This document shows, one piece after another, positions 19,795-30,518 of a stretch of 35,267 nt of DNA (position 1 is its first letter; every line of letters begins with the position of its first letter). The notes beneath the pieces are model-generated. The model saw nothing but the letters and a program-made list of their open reading frames with translations, was not told where the DNA came from and did not search any database. Position numbers and translations under genes: made by a program. Source of the DNA: Candidatus Dadabacteria bacterium (lineage in GTDB: Bacteria > Desulfobacterota_D > UBA1144 > Nemesobacterales > Nemesobacteraceae); NCBI GenBank assembly GCA_022826905.1, contig JAJDUA010000068.1:1-35267 (forward strand). Reading direction: 5' to 3'.

Positions 19795-20685
19795 TCAAAT
19801 GAATTTCCAAATATCCTCACAAAGCAGGTGATCTAAATTACGTATGTGATCTTTCAGTATATCTTCTGTGAGCATGTTTGGGCGAATATCGCAGTAATAA
19901 ACACCGTCGAGGGGGTTAAGCTTAATCGAGTAGCCGCGGAAATGCCCAGGAAGGAAAGTCGAGCCGACGCCGTATTTATTTTTCTGTCTGGTCTTTTTTC
20001 GCTGAACGTCATTTAAGAAGACCGCAATGTGGGGGATGTTCGTATCGGTGAGTTTGCTGTACAAGAACTTGTCAATGAAAATTTTGCCCAGACGGTCTTT
20101 GCTGGAAGTTTTTATTGAACCGATGAGTTTTACGTTTCCATCTTGCTCAACAATTAAATCGTGCTGATAGCTCATCTGGAACTGTTTTTTCCCCCGAAGT
20201 ACAAACGGAATTTTCACTACACCGGACTTGCAGTCGATACCGGTTCCTCTTATGACAAGATGAACCAAGTGTTCAAACAGATCTCCATTAATTTTTCTTG
20301 CTACATTGGATTTCCCTGCAGGCAAAGCGTCAAGAGTTGAACCGACGGCCATCTGCAAAGTATAAACCGTTTTGTTGATTGATTCTCTTTTCTTCTGGGA
20401 TCTTAGATTTTTAGCGTTGTTGAGGATTTTGGCAAAAGATTTTTTAACGGCGGGGAAATCATTGGCACTATGCATGAGTTTTGAGTTGATGGGGCGAGTA
20501 ATCTGGTAGTCGCCCTCAGAACCGTATTGATAAAAATGGTAATGATTCTCGTTCTGGGAAATTATGACTGCCTGCAATTCAGTAGCAACATACGTAAGAT
20601 ACCTCTCCGCGAAATCTAAAAAATCAGAAAGCGTTTTAAACTTTGTTTTGTCTGTCGCGATTTCAGCGAGTCGGGTAATTTTCAT
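19795..20685 (-). CDS. probable type II restriction endonuclease
   Basis: A 296-residue protein whose start overlaps the stop of a DNA methyltransferase by four bases (ATGA), the usual layout of a type II R-M pair. No family is recognised with certainty. A PD-(D/E)xK-like core can be proposed: Glu138 in NGDLFEHLVHLV, Asp176 in YQHDLIVE, and SIK (190-192) in GSIKTSSKDR, preceded by a hydrophobic strand. The rest is basic and mixed. The call rests on context plus this motif. The region is poorer in GC than its neighbours, fitting transfer. An unusual C11 run lies 19 bases after the stop. Confidence 0.65.
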   Translation of the reverse strand: MKITRLAEIATDKTKFKTLSDFLDFAERYLTYVATELQAVIISQNENHYHFYQYGSEGDYQITRPINSKLMHSANDFPAVKKSFAKILNNAKNLRSQKKRESINKTVYTLQMAVGSTLDALPAGKSNVARKINGDLFEHLVHLVIRGTGIDCKSGVVKIPFVLRGKKQFQMSYQHDLIVEQDGNVKLIGSIKTSSKDRLGKIFIDKFLYSKLTDTNIPHIAVFLNDVQRKKTRQKNKYGVGSTFLPGHFRGYSIKLNPLDGVYYCDIRPNMLTEDILKDHIRNLDHLLCEDIWKFI

Positions 20686-23069: not shown

Positions 23070-23783
23070 TTACCGTTCCGTGGGAGACAATATGCCCTGA
23101 TTATCCAAAAGAGTGTGGCAATCCCTCAGGCCGTCATCGTCTGTGAGATATTTTGCCAATGCTGGGTGCACATCATCGCCTCCGCCTTCACCACAGTTGC
23201 CTGCTCCTATGTCCTCTAACTCAGCAGTCCCTGCTGGTACCATTACGTATGGACAAATTACCACAGGTTGATAGCCTGTGGCGTCCGCAGCGCGACGATA
23301 AGCATAGCCAGCCCAGTAACCGGTATATATCGTATCTGCCTCGATGTCAGAGTCGGTCTTGGCTACAAGAAAATATGCTCCGGGTCTGTCAAAATTTCCA
23401 TCCGTTTCACTTACGTAATAGGATGCAATAGTTTCGGCATTCGTAGCACTTTCACCTACCTTTACTCCTACCTGTATAAAGGCTGCATCTCCGAAGGCGA
23501 CACCACGTGCAGTGATCCTGACGTTAGGTTCGCTAAGATCTGTGGGTTCTTCTTCGCGCAGGTCGACGTTTTCATTCGTACAATCCGTTGTACCATCCGC
23601 ATTTACACTGGTATAAAAACCTCTCATCTGCACAGGCTCCGGTGCCATTTCATCATCGTCATCATCACAGGATGAAAGCACTAGCAATCCTGTAAGGCAA
23701 AATGCCACCGATAAGGCAAGAATCCCGAGACTGCGTATCCCTTGAAAACGGCGTAAAGCAAAGCTGTTGTAAAACTTCCACAT
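23070..23783 (-). CDS. lipoprotein of unknown function with poly-Asp after the lipid cysteine
   Basis: A 237-residue secreted lipoprotein. A basic start and hydrophobic segment end in the lipobox LVLSSC, with lipidated Cys39. Five Asp residues follow; in E. coli an Asp at +2 keeps a lipoprotein in the inner membrane, but the rule varies among phyla. The mature part has repeated beta-like stretches (ARGVAFGDAAFIQVGVKVG, IYTGYWAGYAYRRA) and several Cys. No family is recognised. GGAGGGG precedes ATG 23783, and an extended -10 promoter and a strong terminator enclose it as a single-gene unit. Confidence 0.75.
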   Translation of the reverse strand: MWKFYNSFALRRFQGIRSLGILALSVAFCLTGLLVLSSCDDDDDEMAPEPVQMRGFYTSVNADGTTDCTNENVDLREEEPTDLSEPNVRITARGVAFGDAAFIQVGVKVGESATNAETIASYYVSETDGNFDRPGAYFLVAKTDSDIEADTIYTGYWAGYAYRRAADATGYQPVVICPYVMVPAGTAELEDIGAGNCGEGGGDDVHPALAKYLTDDDGLRDCHTLLDNQGILSPTER

Positions 23784-25192: not shown

Positions 25193-27919
25193 TCAAGCTA
25201 GGTCGGAGGATGCTTGCGTATGGGTTTGCGTTTCTGGAGGAATTTTAATCCGCCCTCCAGATTCCTCGGGTCCGGGGTCGTAAAAAATCTCTTTTTCGTT
25301 TGCTAAAAACAACCCTTTCCATAACGCGTATCCTTTCCTGTTCATGTGAAGGCCGTCTTCAGTGAACAGTTCTTCTCTTATATCTCCATTCTCATTTAGC
25401 ATGTAGTCGTAGATATTGAGGTAAAAGGTGTTGGACTCTCTTGACAGGAACTGTCTTACGAGGTCGTTTGACGCCTTGATTCTGTCAAGAAAATGGAACC
25501 TTACGGGACTCGGTTTTATTGAAACGAAGGTAAATTTCGTGTGAGGGTAGAATTCTCTTAAGCGGTGGTAAAAATCCACAAAGAAATTCAGCACCTGCCT
25601 TGGGATGCATCCGTCCCCTATGTCGTTATCCCCCGCGTAGAAAACCAGGGATTTAACATCATTCGGTTTTATGAGCCGCTCGAAATAGTGCAGGCAGTAG
25701 GCGATCCTGGCTCCTCCGAAGCCAAGGTTCAAGACGTTATAATCAGAGAAATCCCTAGCCATGCCCCTCCAGAGGCGGAAACTTGAACTGCCGTAAAATA
25801 CCGTCGCGTCATTCTTTTTCCCGACATGACGTCTCTGAAGGATTCTTACGTCCTGTTCGAACAGGTTTTTATCGATTACCGGGAACTCTTTTTCGACCTG
25901 CTCGAAAGTTTTTAAGTTTATCTTGGTGGATTCCGCTCGCCTTGCAAATCCCGCCGCCTCTTCCACATATTTTCTGTATTCGTTTCCGTATTCCCTGACG
26001 AACTCAAACAGCCTGTCTTTGTTCTTCTCCGGGTTTTTTACGTGATCGGATACCTTGAAGGGTTTTTTTATCACCAAGGAAAACACGTTCTGGTTTATTC
26101 TTTTGTCGAAGTTCGCCACCGCTACGGGAACGATGTAGGGCTCAGGTGAAAGGGACGCGGCCAGAAGAAAAGCACCGAGCTTGAACGGACCGGGCGATTC
26201 CTCCGTCGTCATGCTGGTCCCCTCTGGGCTTATTACTATGTTAAATCCTTTTCCTAGATGCTCCTTGGCCGTTTCATAGAACTTTTTCCTCCAAGCTTTT
26301 CTCCGCTCAGGGGTTCCCTGGGAGAGATCGGATTCGTCTGTGTAAACATTTATGTGTCCAAGCCTTTCATAGTAGTATTCATGTCCGTATTCTTCCGCCC
26401 TTGGAACGCGTACGACGCGAATTCCTGCCTCGCCATACTTGGCGTAAAGAACCATTGAGCTTATGAAGTGGGAATCAAGCGTAATCTGAAAATGGTTGGG
26501 AAGGGTGTTATAGGGATGGTTCAGCAGATGGTTGTATATGAAAATGTGTCCCGGCTCATCTGGCAGATTCTCCCAGCCTTCAATTACGTAAGGAGTGCTA
26601 TTGAAGACTCCTGCGAACTGTTTGGCCGCCATGGTTCTTATTTCGCTCGGAGAAAGCGACTTGGGCGCGGCGGTCACGGACTGGTAGACATTTTTTAAAC
26701 CCTCGAAAAAATTGTATTCCTTGTAGATTTTTCCGAGAATATCGAGGCTGAGACGGGACAGTTCCCTCTCAAGGCTCTCGCCTTCTTTCTCCAGTCTGAA
26801 CAGAAGCCGGAAAGCGTCATCTAGCGTAAGCGGGCTGTTTAGCAGATGGGGAAGCTTATGAATTGGGGAGTTTACGCTTAACTGCATGGAGTTTTGCTCG
26901 ATAAGGTTGCTTATAGCCAGTATTTCTCGCTCGTATCTTTGCGATATTAGCCCCGCGCGGGCATTTCGAAGCCGGATCGACACCAGCCATAAAAGTCTTC
27001 TGGCCAGAGCTAGGGCCAAGTGAGGGTCCTGGCTCAGGATCTTGTGAAGATTGCGGGAGCTTATGTGGTAGATGACCGAATTCCTGCTCGCAACGGCGGT
27101 AACGTCATTTGACCCGGCCGGGGCGGCTCCCATCCAGCCGACCAGGTATCCGGGAAGGTTGATCAGGTGAAGCGCCACGGATTCCTCGATTCCTCCCTGC
27201 GCCCCGTCGGGAGAGAAGCACAGTGCCGCCTTTCCGTAAGCCAGTATGTCTATTCCTTTCGAAGCATCCCCTTGGTTGAATATGGGTTCGTTGTTTAGAT
27301 AGTATTTTTTCTGGGTTGCTTTTGCCAGCTGGCGCAGTGTCTTATCGGGAAAAACCTCGAAAAAAGGAGACTGCCTAAGAAGCTGAAGCGGGTTGGGTAC
27401 GGATATGTATTTTCCTTCCTGAGAAAGACCGCCTGTTTTTCCCGCCTCGATATCCCAGCTTAGGTTGTTGTATTCCGCAAGCTCTGCTCGGACATGCGTC
27501 AGGAGATTTATGCTTTTACTCAGAACGAAAAGCAGGAACTCACGTCCCAGAAGAGGCTCCTGGTCAAAGAATCTTTCAAGATTCTGGTGACTCCACTTTA
27601 GCAGGACACAGGGCTTCTCGCATGTAATTGTCGTGTAGTAGCGCTTGGGAAGACGAAAGCCTGACCAGCCTACGGGAGTGAATTTCTCACTGCTTTTCCC
27701 CACTGAGAACTCATCTGTCTTATCTTCGACGCTGATTGAGAAATTCACCTGGCCTTCGATAAGAAAATAGAAGGAATGGCTCGGTTCGAACTGTTTGGTG
27801 AGAACGTAGCGCTCGGGCACTTCTATCAGTTCGCCGATCTTAAGCAGAAAATCGGTTTTATCTTTCTCGAAATTCGAAACGAACGGAAGTTCGCTGAATA
27901 TCTCTTTTTTTTCCCACAT
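25193..27919 (-). CDS. four-domain protein: two cNMP-binding-like domains, PlsC-like acyltransferase, SGNH hydrolase
   Basis: A 908-residue protein with an unusual build. Residues about 20-135 and 182-310 each look like a Crp-type cyclic-nucleotide-binding beta-roll (SFYFLIEGQVNFSI; PIFNQGDASKGIDILAYGKAAL) with no DNA-binding part. Residues about 430-640 resemble a lysophosphatidate acyltransferase: IFIYNHLLNHPYNTLPNHF, then ISPEGTSMT. The usual HxxxxD is not met; a Pro follows at the Asp position. Residues about 704-875 form an SGNH/GDSL hydrolase: GSSSFRLW (Ser711 or 712), LGFGGA, AGDNDIGDG (Asn765) and DGLHMNRKGY (Asp855, His858). No signal peptide or clear membrane helix is seen. It may link a nucleotide or other ligand signal to acyl-lipid remodelling; that is inference. 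The start lies in an AT-rich leader without SD. Confidence 0.85.
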   Translation of the reverse strand: MWEKKEIFSELPFVSNFEKDKTDFLLKIGELIEVPERYVLTKQFEPSHSFYFLIEGQVNFSISVEDKTDEFSVGKSSEKFTPVGWSGFRLPKRYYTTITCEKPCVLLKWSHQNLERFFDQEPLLGREFLLFVLSKSINLLTHVRAELAEYNNLSWDIEAGKTGGLSQEGKYISVPNPLQLLRQSPFFEVFPDKTLRQLAKATQKKYYLNNEPIFNQGDASKGIDILAYGKAALCFSPDGAQGGIEESVALHLINLPGYLVGWMGAAPAGSNDVTAVASRNSVIYHISSRNLHKILSQDPHLALALARRLLWLVSIRLRNARAGLISQRYEREILAISNLIEQNSMQLSVNSPIHKLPHLLNSPLTLDDAFRLLFRLEKEGESLERELSRLSLDILGKIYKEYNFFEGLKNVYQSVTAAPKSLSPSEIRTMAAKQFAGVFNSTPYVIEGWENLPDEPGHIFIYNHLLNHPYNTLPNHFQITLDSHFISSMVLYAKYGEAGIRVVRVPRAEEYGHEYYYERLGHINVYTDESDLSQGTPERRKAWRKKFYETAKEHLGKGFNIVISPEGTSMTTEESPGPFKLGAFLLAASLSPEPYIVPVAVANFDKRINQNVFSLVIKKPFKVSDHVKNPEKNKDRLFEFVREYGNEYRKYVEEAAGFARRAESTKINLKTFEQVEKEFPVIDKNLFEQDVRILQRRHVGKKNDATVFYGSSSFRLWRGMARDFSDYNVLNLGFGGARIAYCLHYFERLIKPNDVKSLVFYAGDNDIGDGCIPRQVLNFFVDFYHRLREFYPHTKFTFVSIKPSPVRFHFLDRIKASNDLVRQFLSRESNTFYLNIYDYMLNENGDIREELFTEDGLHMNRKGYALWKGLFLANEKEIFYDPGPEESGGRIKIPPETQTHTQASSDLA

Positions 27920-28932: not shown

Positions 28933-30198
28933 TTAATCAGCGTCCTCAATCCGAAAATCCGGGGACAGCATCTTCCAGTGTTCCTTTAGCTGTTTTTTGT
29001 GAGCGTGGTCTGCGGGCAGGTTTTCAAGAGATTTCGGCCAGAGAGCACGCGCTTTATCCAGCGTGTCGTCAAGATGCGGCTTAATGATTTTCCATGGAAT
29101 ACCGGCTTTATCCGCCCAAGCTCTGAAGTGACTGAAAGTGACTTTGTACCAGTCCTTGTTTCTGTCTAGATTTAACGCGTATTCCTTTTCGTCGCCCATA
29201 TAAACACGAGTAACCACGATATCGTAAGCGGGAGAAAGTTCTGGTGTAACCGTATCGGGATAGATCAGGGACCAGTTTTTCAAATGAGCGTCACCATTGG
29301 CTAGAAGAATGTTAACCAGCAGTCGTCGGGCGAATTGTTGGGTGTTTCCGAGGCTGTTGCCTGTGTACTGATAGATGATCTTGCCTATCTGTTCATAGTT
29401 CGGACCGTCATACTTTTGCTGTGGGTACCTCACCAGCACCTGGGCGAAGTCTTCGGCGTGAATGCGTTTCTCGCCCGCTCGGTCAAACCGCCGTATCGCA
29501 AAGGCGAATTCTTCATCGGGGAGATTAATAGCGGGGAGTTTATCCAGGCTGCCCATTTCAACTAACTTTATATCCGGTATATCGATGCCCGCTGTCTGCG
29601 CAAGCCGCATGGCGGTGAACTCGTTTAAGGGAACAAACTTGTGCACAGTGGACGGAGTTTTGATGATCCAGTTCCCGAGATCTCCGGATTCAGTGATCCG
29701 ATAGCGTCCATCCTGTTCCCGCATCGAGAATTTCATCTGTACGCCAGCTAGGGAAAAATGTTTCGCTTCATCCGGCAAACCGGTTTTAACGGCAGTCGCA
29801 CCGAGGGCTAATATATAGCCGGGAACGTCGTCAGGTTTTGCAGGAATTGCGATGAGAGCTCCGGGTAAATCCTCTCCAAGGCAGGTGAGCAGTCCGAATT
29901 CATTGTCAATATGGATTTTCAGATGCTGCGCCAGCAACTCTCTCAACGCTCCCTCTGGCAGCAGATTGGAGAGCGCCGGATGCAGTCGTTGTCTCCTTGA
30001 CCATGGTTTTGCAAGCACGTTTTTGACATTGGGGAATTCCGGGTGCGTTGTCAGGGTGAAAGTTGGACGTGAACTGTTTCCTGTAAACTCAGGCGTAAAA
30101 GTAAGGATATTTCGGCCGTCCTTGTAGCCCGTCAGATATCCGACCTTTGCGCCGTGCAGGATGAGTTCTAAGACGTTGACTTCTTCTGGATCGCTCAC
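28933..30198 (-). CDS. hipA: HipA-type toxin kinase
   Basis: Ser/Thr kinase toxin of the HipBA type; E. coli HipA phosphorylates glutamyl-tRNA synthetase and triggers dormancy, but the target here may differ. Visible: the N-terminal subdomain (LELILHGAKVGYLTGYKDGR), the nucleotide region FSLAGVQMK (148-156), FAIRRFDR, catalytic Asp303 in NGDAHLKNW, and the metal-binding SPAYDIV with Asp326. All key residues are present, so the toxin looks active. The frame is open to 30225, but GTG 30198 has GGAGGA at ideal spacing, two bases after the hipB stop, giving 421 residues. Confidence 0.9.
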   Translation of the reverse strand: MSDPEEVNVLELILHGAKVGYLTGYKDGRNILTFTPEFTGNSSRPTFTLTTHPEFPNVKNVLAKPWSRRQRLHPALSNLLPEGALRELLAQHLKIHIDNEFGLLTCLGEDLPGALIAIPAKPDDVPGYILALGATAVKTGLPDEAKHFSLAGVQMKFSMREQDGRYRITESGDLGNWIIKTPSTVHKFVPLNEFTAMRLAQTAGIDIPDIKLVEMGSLDKLPAINLPDEEFAFAIRRFDRAGEKRIHAEDFAQVLVRYPQQKYDGPNYEQIGKIIYQYTGNSLGNTQQFARRLLVNILLANGDAHLKNWSLIYPDTVTPELSPAYDIVVTRVYMGDEKEYALNLDRNKDWYKVTFSHFRAWADKAGIPWKIIKPHLDDTLDKARALWPKSLENLPADHAHKKQLKEHWKMLSPDFRIEDAD

Positions 30199-30200
30199 GA

Positions 30201-30518
30201 TTATTCCTCCAGCAGTCCTTCCCAAGGATCATCGGGAGGAGGCTCCACACTGAGAGTGAAGTCAGCTTTAATGCAGGAGCCTGTATCGGTTCTTCCTTCC
30301 AGAATGTCGCGAACTACGCGCAGTTTTTCCTGCGGTATAAGCAGAACTTCCATCCTGAGCCCCTTGGCAACCAGTTCAAGAGTTTCTAGGCGTGGGTTGC
30401 CTCTTGATTCCAGCCGTTGATACTGCTGTCTTGACATGCCGAAACGCAGCATCATATCTTTTTGTTTCAGGCCGAGTTCTTTTCTGCGGCCTTTAATTTG
30501 ATCGCGTATTTTGCTCAT
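30201..30518 (-). CDS. hipB: HipB-type XRE antitoxin
   Basis: A 105-residue antitoxin and repressor. An N-terminal helix-turn-helix (KELGLKQKDMMLRFGMSRQQ, then YQRLESRG) is followed by a longer tail (about 60 to 105) ending PWEGLLEE, probably the part that contacts HipA. The gene precedes hipA and ends two bases before it. GGAG lies before ATG 30518. Promoter and inverted repeats lie directly upstream. Confidence 0.88.
   Translation of the reverse strand: MSKIRDQIKGRRKELGLKQKDMMLRFGMSRQQYQRLESRGNPRLETLELVAKGLRMEVLLIPQEKLRVVRDILEGRTDTGSCIKADFTLSVEPPPDDPWEGLLEE

Follow-up and report, generated by a model that had tools for sequence, protein, structure and literature searches.

In the mycobacterial acetyltransferase Pat, a cyclic nucleotide-binding domain (CNBD) is combined with a GNAT domain, and the OafA-like AT3-SGNH fusions contain a multi-pass AT3 membrane domain. 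The CNBDs that respond to cyclic AMP (cAMP) or cGMP carry a phosphate-binding cassette with a Glu and an Arg, of the form FGE(M/L)A...R-(S/T)-A. The nearest functional analogue of the protein described here is NTE/PNPLA6 (Swiss cheese), in which CNBDs precede a (lyso)phospholipase in one chain (PMC6995513); the part of that source considered here gives no evidence for direct binding of cAMP to NTE. The protein in question is encoded in a 35,267-nucleotide stretch of DNA from a Candidatus Dadabacteria bacterium (contig JAJDUA010000068.1; the whole stretch is hereinafter the window), where a single intact open reading frame (ORF) of 908 codons plus the stop, with an ATG start, combines two cyclic nucleotide monophosphate (cNMP)-binding-like domains, a linker, a PlsC-like acyltransferase domain and an SGNH hydrolase domain. 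The gene and its parts, with the evidence for each, are the following.

25193..27919, minus strand: whole gene, 908 amino acids plus stop (ORF; full-length orthologues with 82–94% identity)
27560..27823, minus strand: cNMP-binding-like domain 1, with the cassette GWSGF...R93-Y-Y-T replacing FGE(M/L)A...R-S-A (PF00027, 27.7 bits; cassette columns)
27026..27307, minus strand: cNMP-binding-like domain 2, with the cassette GWMGA...NDVT and no Arg at the cassette place (PF00027, 34.2 bits; cassette columns)
26600..26944, minus strand: conserved linker, residues 326–440, without a Pfam family of its own (lowest ratio of nonsynonymous to synonymous substitution rates, dN/dS, in the protein)
25940..26599, minus strand: PlsC-like acyltransferase domain, residues 441–660 (PF01553, 30.9 bits; hhalign with canonical PlsC profiles)
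26459..26542, minus strand: altered motif I, residues 460–487, F-I-x-N-H-x-x-N-(H/Y)-x(4)-L-P-N-x-F-x-x-T-L-D-(S/T)-H-F-x-S (column counts, 15 rows)
26213..26227, minus strand: motif III, P-E-G-(T/A)-S, residues 565–569 (aligned columns)
25274..25894, minus strand: SGNH/GDSL hydrolase domain, residues 676–882, with S712, N765, D855 and H858 (PF13472, 47 bits; PDB 6njc, 1.8e-8)

The domains stand in the order given in the preliminary description of this locus, cNMP_binding, Acyltransferase and Lipase_GDSL_2, and all score above the curated Pfam-A cut-offs: 52.5 bits in total over two stretches for cNMP_binding (cut-off 27.5), 30.9 bits over residues 516–601 for PF01553 (cut-off 23; only profile positions 60–131 are covered) and 47.0 bits over residues 709–866 for PF13472 (cut-off 32.9). 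Domain 1 is weak when taken alone, being barely above the PF00027 cut-off, and falls under it in four of the 12 full-length proteins from the window's genus. AlphaFold2 models of the full chain (nine close rows, the window protein and eight orthologues, L001–L008) and of residues 430–665 had a mean predicted local distance difference test score (pLDDT) of 41.3 and 41.9, respectively, too low for the models to be usable.

Each of the known systems resembles a part of this protein and departs from it elsewhere. The hydrolase of NTE is a patatin, NTE has a transmembrane segment and it lacks an acyltransferase domain, whereas the 908-amino acid protein carries an SGNH hydrolase, does not match patatin in Pfam even at E up to 1 and contains no stretch hydrophobic enough for a transmembrane segment (best 19-residue mean, 1.44); no signal-like N terminus was seen by eye. 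The lack of such a stretch, along with the lack of a match to the AT3 domain PF01757 at E up to 1, also sets it apart from the OafA-like fusions. Pat shares the placement of a CNBD ahead of an acyl-transfer enzyme, and in two relatives from a second phylum (see below), the CNBD part is matched by the NCBIfam model ActPatMycb56, but the enzyme of Pat has the GNAT fold, these matches score 23–26 bits where the cut-off is 460, and the model is not listed for the window protein. With PlsC (1-acylglycerol-3-phosphate acyltransferase; PF01553, TIGR00530, PDB 5kym), the motif I NH, the PEGT motif and a later VP motif align, but HX4D is missing, motif I is altered family-wide and the TIGR00530 score is far under the cut-off (19.1 vs 102.95 bits). 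The SGNH/GDSL lysophospholipase L1-like hydrolases (PF13472; 6njc) share each of the four blocks, as well as the triad, with the C-terminal domain, which is here a part of a fusion, whereas a Gemmatirosa relative is a stand-alone protein whose N terminus looks signal-like by eye. The search of the literature, with most subscription papers and all preprints outside its scope, found no paper describing the combination of CNBD, acyltransferase and SGNH, in line with the preliminary description, which knew of no characterised protein of this build. In the part considered here, PMC12419801 reports fusions of CNBDs with VanZ-type lipocone domains, and an operon that combines SGNH genes with MBOAT, neither of which is this build.

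The protein is real, conserved and unusual, and the original observation is confirmed. The closest records are metagenome-assembled genomes of Candidatus Dadabacteria; the window genome comprises 1.78 Mb in 69 contigs, and the bacterium probably lives in association with marine sponges, judging from isolate names and a literature listing. Among the 60 relatives searched, the full-length fusion is present in 12 of the 13 genomes of the genus (89–97% complete), the window genome included. In the remaining genome (G004, contig C3; L023, L025 and L068), two gene remnants corresponding to residues 3–60 and 808–906 were observed, and this genome is devoid of any cNMP_binding match; the gene has been lost in this one lineage. 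Every domain is under purifying selection: against eight orthologues, dN/dS is 0.05–0.08 for domain 1, 0.06–0.16 for domain 2, 0.04–0.09 for the acyltransferase and 0.04–0.10 for the SGNH domain, the linker is the most conserved part (0.00–0.06), and residues 883–902 yield 0.31–1.13.

Beyond the genus, the domains occur in several arrangements. A fusion of 896 amino acids, with a TTG start, is found in a genome from another family of the same order (G019), and in a sister genus within the window's family (G013), a 697-amino acid CNBD-CNBD-linker-acyltransferase gene is followed, after 17 bases, by a 199-amino acid SGNH gene. Similarly, the 1.58-Mb plasmid of Persicobacter sp. JZB09 (Bacteroidota) carries genes for 655 and 209 (SGNH) amino acids that are one base apart; of the 51 plasmid records with a match, this one alone has 80% of the query covered at a single place. 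The preliminary description had envisaged a fusion confined to this assembly with two adjacent genes elsewhere; adjacent genes indeed exist in G013 and Persicobacter, but the fusion in 12 of the 13 genus genomes and in G019 shows that it is not a peculiarity of one assembly. The gene tree joins G019, G013 and the genus in a trichotomy (group support 94/90), which is compatible both with fission of a fused gene in G013 and with a fusion that arose twice; the placement of Persicobacter is weak (53/54).

Searches with a profile of the linker and acyltransferase (E up to 1e-10) recovered 14 of the 386 relatives, namely the 12 genus genomes, G013 and G019. The core was also found in the phylum of G138, G590 and G438 (the ‘second phylum’, which may or may not be that of Persicobacter): two of 396 genomes of the phylum of G138 and 12 of 162 genomes of the order of G590 were positive, both of the former being included in the latter. 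None was detected in 245 genomes of the phylum of G110, where there is no known positive to gauge the sensitivity. With the linker-acyltransferase part of the window protein as a tblastn query, one of 72,556 plasmid records matched; eight stretches in IMG/VR fit a pattern, none of which was confirmed as a relative, and a phage collection gave one weak SGNH match. Ten second-phylum genomes of one family (f289) encode CNBD-CNBD-linker-acyltransferase proteins of 662–755 amino acids as called, and two genomes of another (f278) have the first CNBD in a frame of its own, ahead of the CNBD-linker-acyltransferase gene. No SGNH gene was detected in 12 second-phylum stretches of 9–20 kb, some of which are ended by contig ends (four SGNH queries, tblastn, 1e-3). 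The unit is thus modular: its core consists of the CNBDs, the linker and the acyltransferase, and in Dadabacteria and Persicobacter it is extended by SGNH, either in a neighbouring gene or by fusion.

Some further arrangements were observed in the second phylum. In G438 (L064, 8507–11135), the first CNBD is a separate 187-amino acid gene, followed by a CNBD-acyltransferase gene and then by an AAA_28 NTPase. Near split CNBD and CNBD-acyltransferase genes of the same genome (L043, 3111–3944), there is an SGNH-looking protein (GHQSVGEN...GGHLN, by eye) that none of the SGNH queries matched at 1e-3. The common neighbours of the core gene in two f289 stretches (L054 and L061) are a glyoxalase-family gene and a CarboxypepD_reg/Plug outer-membrane protein.

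The acyltransferase domain was examined in an alignment of 15 rows, which consisted of three of the 12 full-length genus proteins, G019, G013, Persicobacter and nine of the 12 second-phylum loci (L057, L061 and L063 were left out). All 15 members match PF00027 (E up to 0.01) and PF01553. Motif I is conspicuously conserved, with F460, I461, N463, H464, N467, L473, P474, N475, F477, T480, L481, D482, H484, F485 and S487 invariant in 15 of 15 rows; P565, E566, G567 and S569 of motif III and P598 of the VP motif IV are invariant as well, and T568 is present in 13 rows. The PEGT and VP motifs align with those of 5kym and of PlsC loci. The residue five positions after H464, where HX4D calls for Asp, is Pro in six rows (including the window protein), Glu in six, Phe in two and Arg in one, and a canonical HX4D acyltransferase is rejected on this ground. 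Among PDB entries, the profile of the domain retrieves only PlsC of Thermotoga maritima (5kym), with an E-value that is not significant (0.18; 0.051 with the linker added), and in this non-significant alignment N463-H464 is placed over NH and the PEGT motifs coincide.

Comparison by hhalign with eight overlapping sets of canonical PlsC sequences (first eight of 28 PlsC loci, from one strand only, and later 20 of the 28, the other eight being without the NH-x4-(D/E) pattern) puts N463-H464 over the NH of PlsC motif I, which we take to be the catalytic NH, in all eight sets. The canonical motif served to select these sets, and they differ in the residue that they place over Asp: position 469 in seven of the eight, and D482 in one, with a 13-residue insertion. 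The acidic partner of H464 is thus ambiguous from sequence; the majority alignment favours 469, that is, the ‘Pro at the Asp place’ of the preliminary description, whose statement that the standard HxxxxD is missing is borne out by the 15-row columns too. Judging from these alignments, the domain represents a family that resembles PlsC but has its own, altered form of motif I in all aligned members. Of the two outcomes contemplated earlier, different chemistry or lost chemistry, the former fits the altered motif and the latter is disfavoured: the strict conservation of N-H, D482, H484 and PEG(T/A)S, along with purifying selection, suggests an active site that is changed, not dead.

In the SGNH domain, all the blocks are present, GSS 710–712 (I), GFGG 733–736 (II), GDND 763–766 (III) and DGLH 855–858 (V, DxLH), and their Ser, Gly, Asn, Asp and His residues are invariant in five of five rows, so that the triad (S712, D855, H858), previously described as intact, is indeed complete. 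The top PDB match, 6njc (1.8e-8), is named sialate O-acetylesterase / lysophospholipase L1.

Taken together, these features are tentatively interpreted as those of an enzyme that acylates and deacylates membrane lipids from the cytosol, under a regulatory module that does not depend on cAMP, a reading that is plausible but falls somewhat short of probable; the activities, substrate, location, coupling and regulation are all inferred. The protein would be cytosolic and reside at the inner membrane face. The PlsC-like domain would transfer an acyl group from acyl-coenzyme A or acyl carrier protein to a lyso-lipid or a similar hydroxyl acceptor, the SGNH domain would release an acyl group by ester hydrolysis from the same lipid class, and their coupling in one polypeptide could result in turnover or remodelling of acyl chains. 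The CNBD pair and the linker would constitute a regulatory or scaffold module, comparable to that of NTE, that has departed from canonical cyclic-nucleotide recognition and might regulate or organise both enzymes via a non-cAMP ligand or by assembly alone. Repeated gene adjacency and fusion are a standard sign of joint function, and joint action of the acyltransferase and the SGNH hydrolase is suggested by the adjacent forms in G013 and Persicobacter and the fused forms in the genus and G019.

Several observations weigh against this interpretation, in addition to the missing HX4D. In the fetched stretches of the ten f289 genomes, several of which are ended by contig ends, the core was found but no SGNH gene, so an SGNH partner next to the acyltransferase is not required in every lineage. 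Many kinds of ester are substrates of SGNH enzymes, and the lipid substrate is accordingly a putative one. The neighbouring genes vary among the lineages and point to no pathway (the window and four second-phylum stretches were scanned; G013, G019 and Persicobacter were considered as ORF lists). Because the window genome also encodes a separate, canonical PlsC, the 908-amino acid protein is probably an accessory rather than a housekeeping enzyme there, but this role is uncertain in view of G007 (a single contig, 91% complete), where the fusion gene is the only PF01553 match; five other genus genomes in this search have two matches each, the second of 1.5e-30-type strength. In G007, the canonical PlsC may be missing from the assembly, or the fusion gene may stand in for it.

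The same architecture might instead edit acyl groups on something other than a membrane phospholipid, with the two enzymes attaching and removing the group on a specialised lipid, a sugar or a secondary product, which seems possible albeit on the unlikely side. The alteration of motif I throughout the family is what would be expected for a changed acceptor, the name of the best SGNH match in the PDB includes sialate O-acetylesterase, and the window genome has its own canonical PlsC; however, no biosynthetic cluster was recognised among the 10 genes of the window or the neighbours in the four second-phylum stretches, and the fusion gene being the only PF01553 gene found in G007 counts against this reading as well.

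A more specific version of the lipid-remodelling enzyme, which we consider unlikely as a whole, is that a cyclic-nucleotide-independent CNBD pair reads a lipid, an acyl-thioester or another ligand and sets the balance of acylation and deacylation, with the catalytic dyad relocated to H464 and D482 (HX17D for HX4D). If true, this would be a self-contained lipid-remodelling switch, kept by probable sponge symbionts that show no usual cAMP signalling genes among those searched.

Still less credible is an acyltransferase fold that is a dead enzyme, binding acyl chains and regulating or targeting the SGNH hydrolase. The missing HX4D speaks for it, as does the free variation of position 469, the one that falls over Asp in seven of the eight hhalign sets, but the invariance of N-H, D482, H484 and PEG(T/A)S and the low dN/dS of the domain (0.04–0.09) speak against inactivity, and in the second phylum, where the search near the core found no SGNH gene, the core seems to serve some function by itself.

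The preliminary description also proposed a ligand sensor exerting signal control, that is, a cyclic-nucleotide switch, and this part has lost ground. In all 13 rows that have domain 1, the cassette is GWSGF...R-(Y/H)-x-T, with Trp in place of Glu and the Arg (R93) kept; in the aligned rows, domain 2 has neither the Glu nor a conserved Arg. As a control, canonical FGEM(A/S)...RSA cassettes were recovered in four of five CNBD stretches from other G013 and G019 proteins (L106 was outside the pattern), so the pattern method is able to detect them. Class III cyclases, the only class searched, were detected in none of the 13 genus genomes, which are 89–97% complete, and none of the 10 f289 carriers, and outside the fusion protein, no other PF00027 match above the cut-off was found in the 13 genus genomes (there are sub-cut-off matches of 23.2 bits in G000 and 21.7 bits in G005). 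The absence of a canonical cassette, of a detected class III cyclase and of another above-cut-off CNBD in the genus weakens the reading as a cAMP switch and makes a canonical cAMP sensor unlikely from the sequences at hand; as the likeliest reading it is rejected. A cAMP- or cGMP-switched acyltransferase/esterase is, accordingly, quite doubtful, although both domains match PF00027, R93 is invariant, four carriers outside the genus (G013, G019, G438 and G824) do possess class III cyclases, and other cyclase classes or host-made cAMP may be sources of the ligand. According to the part of PMC6995513 considered here, the interaction of PNPLA7, a paralogue of NTE, with lipid droplets is affected by cAMP via its third CNBD, which also speaks for such a switch. 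G013 and G019 each have a 2-kb stretch (L104 and L105) that holds both a class III cyclase and a small CNBD protein with the canonical FGEMA...RSA cassette.

An assembly artefact or a decaying gene, of which only the remnants in G004 are reminiscent, is ruled out by the full-length copies in G019 and 12 of the 13 genus genomes, the single-contig chromosome OX638332.1 among them, and by the low dN/dS.

If the lipid-remodelling interpretation is right, the making and the breaking of acyl bonds could be studied along with a sensor-like module in one compact protein. The CNBD pair would then be under purifying selection in genomes where no class III cyclase or other above-cut-off CNBD protein was detected, and the question posed by NTE, namely what the non-canonical CNBDs of lipid enzymes sense, could be put to the test with a bacterial protein that has no membrane spans.

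Elsewhere in the window, ORFs of 237 and 296 amino acids (23073–23783 and 19798–20685) have no Pfam match at 1e-3, and positions 28933–30225 of the minus strand encode a HipA-like kinase with a TTG start (HipA_C, 162 bits; Couple_hipA, 55 bits).

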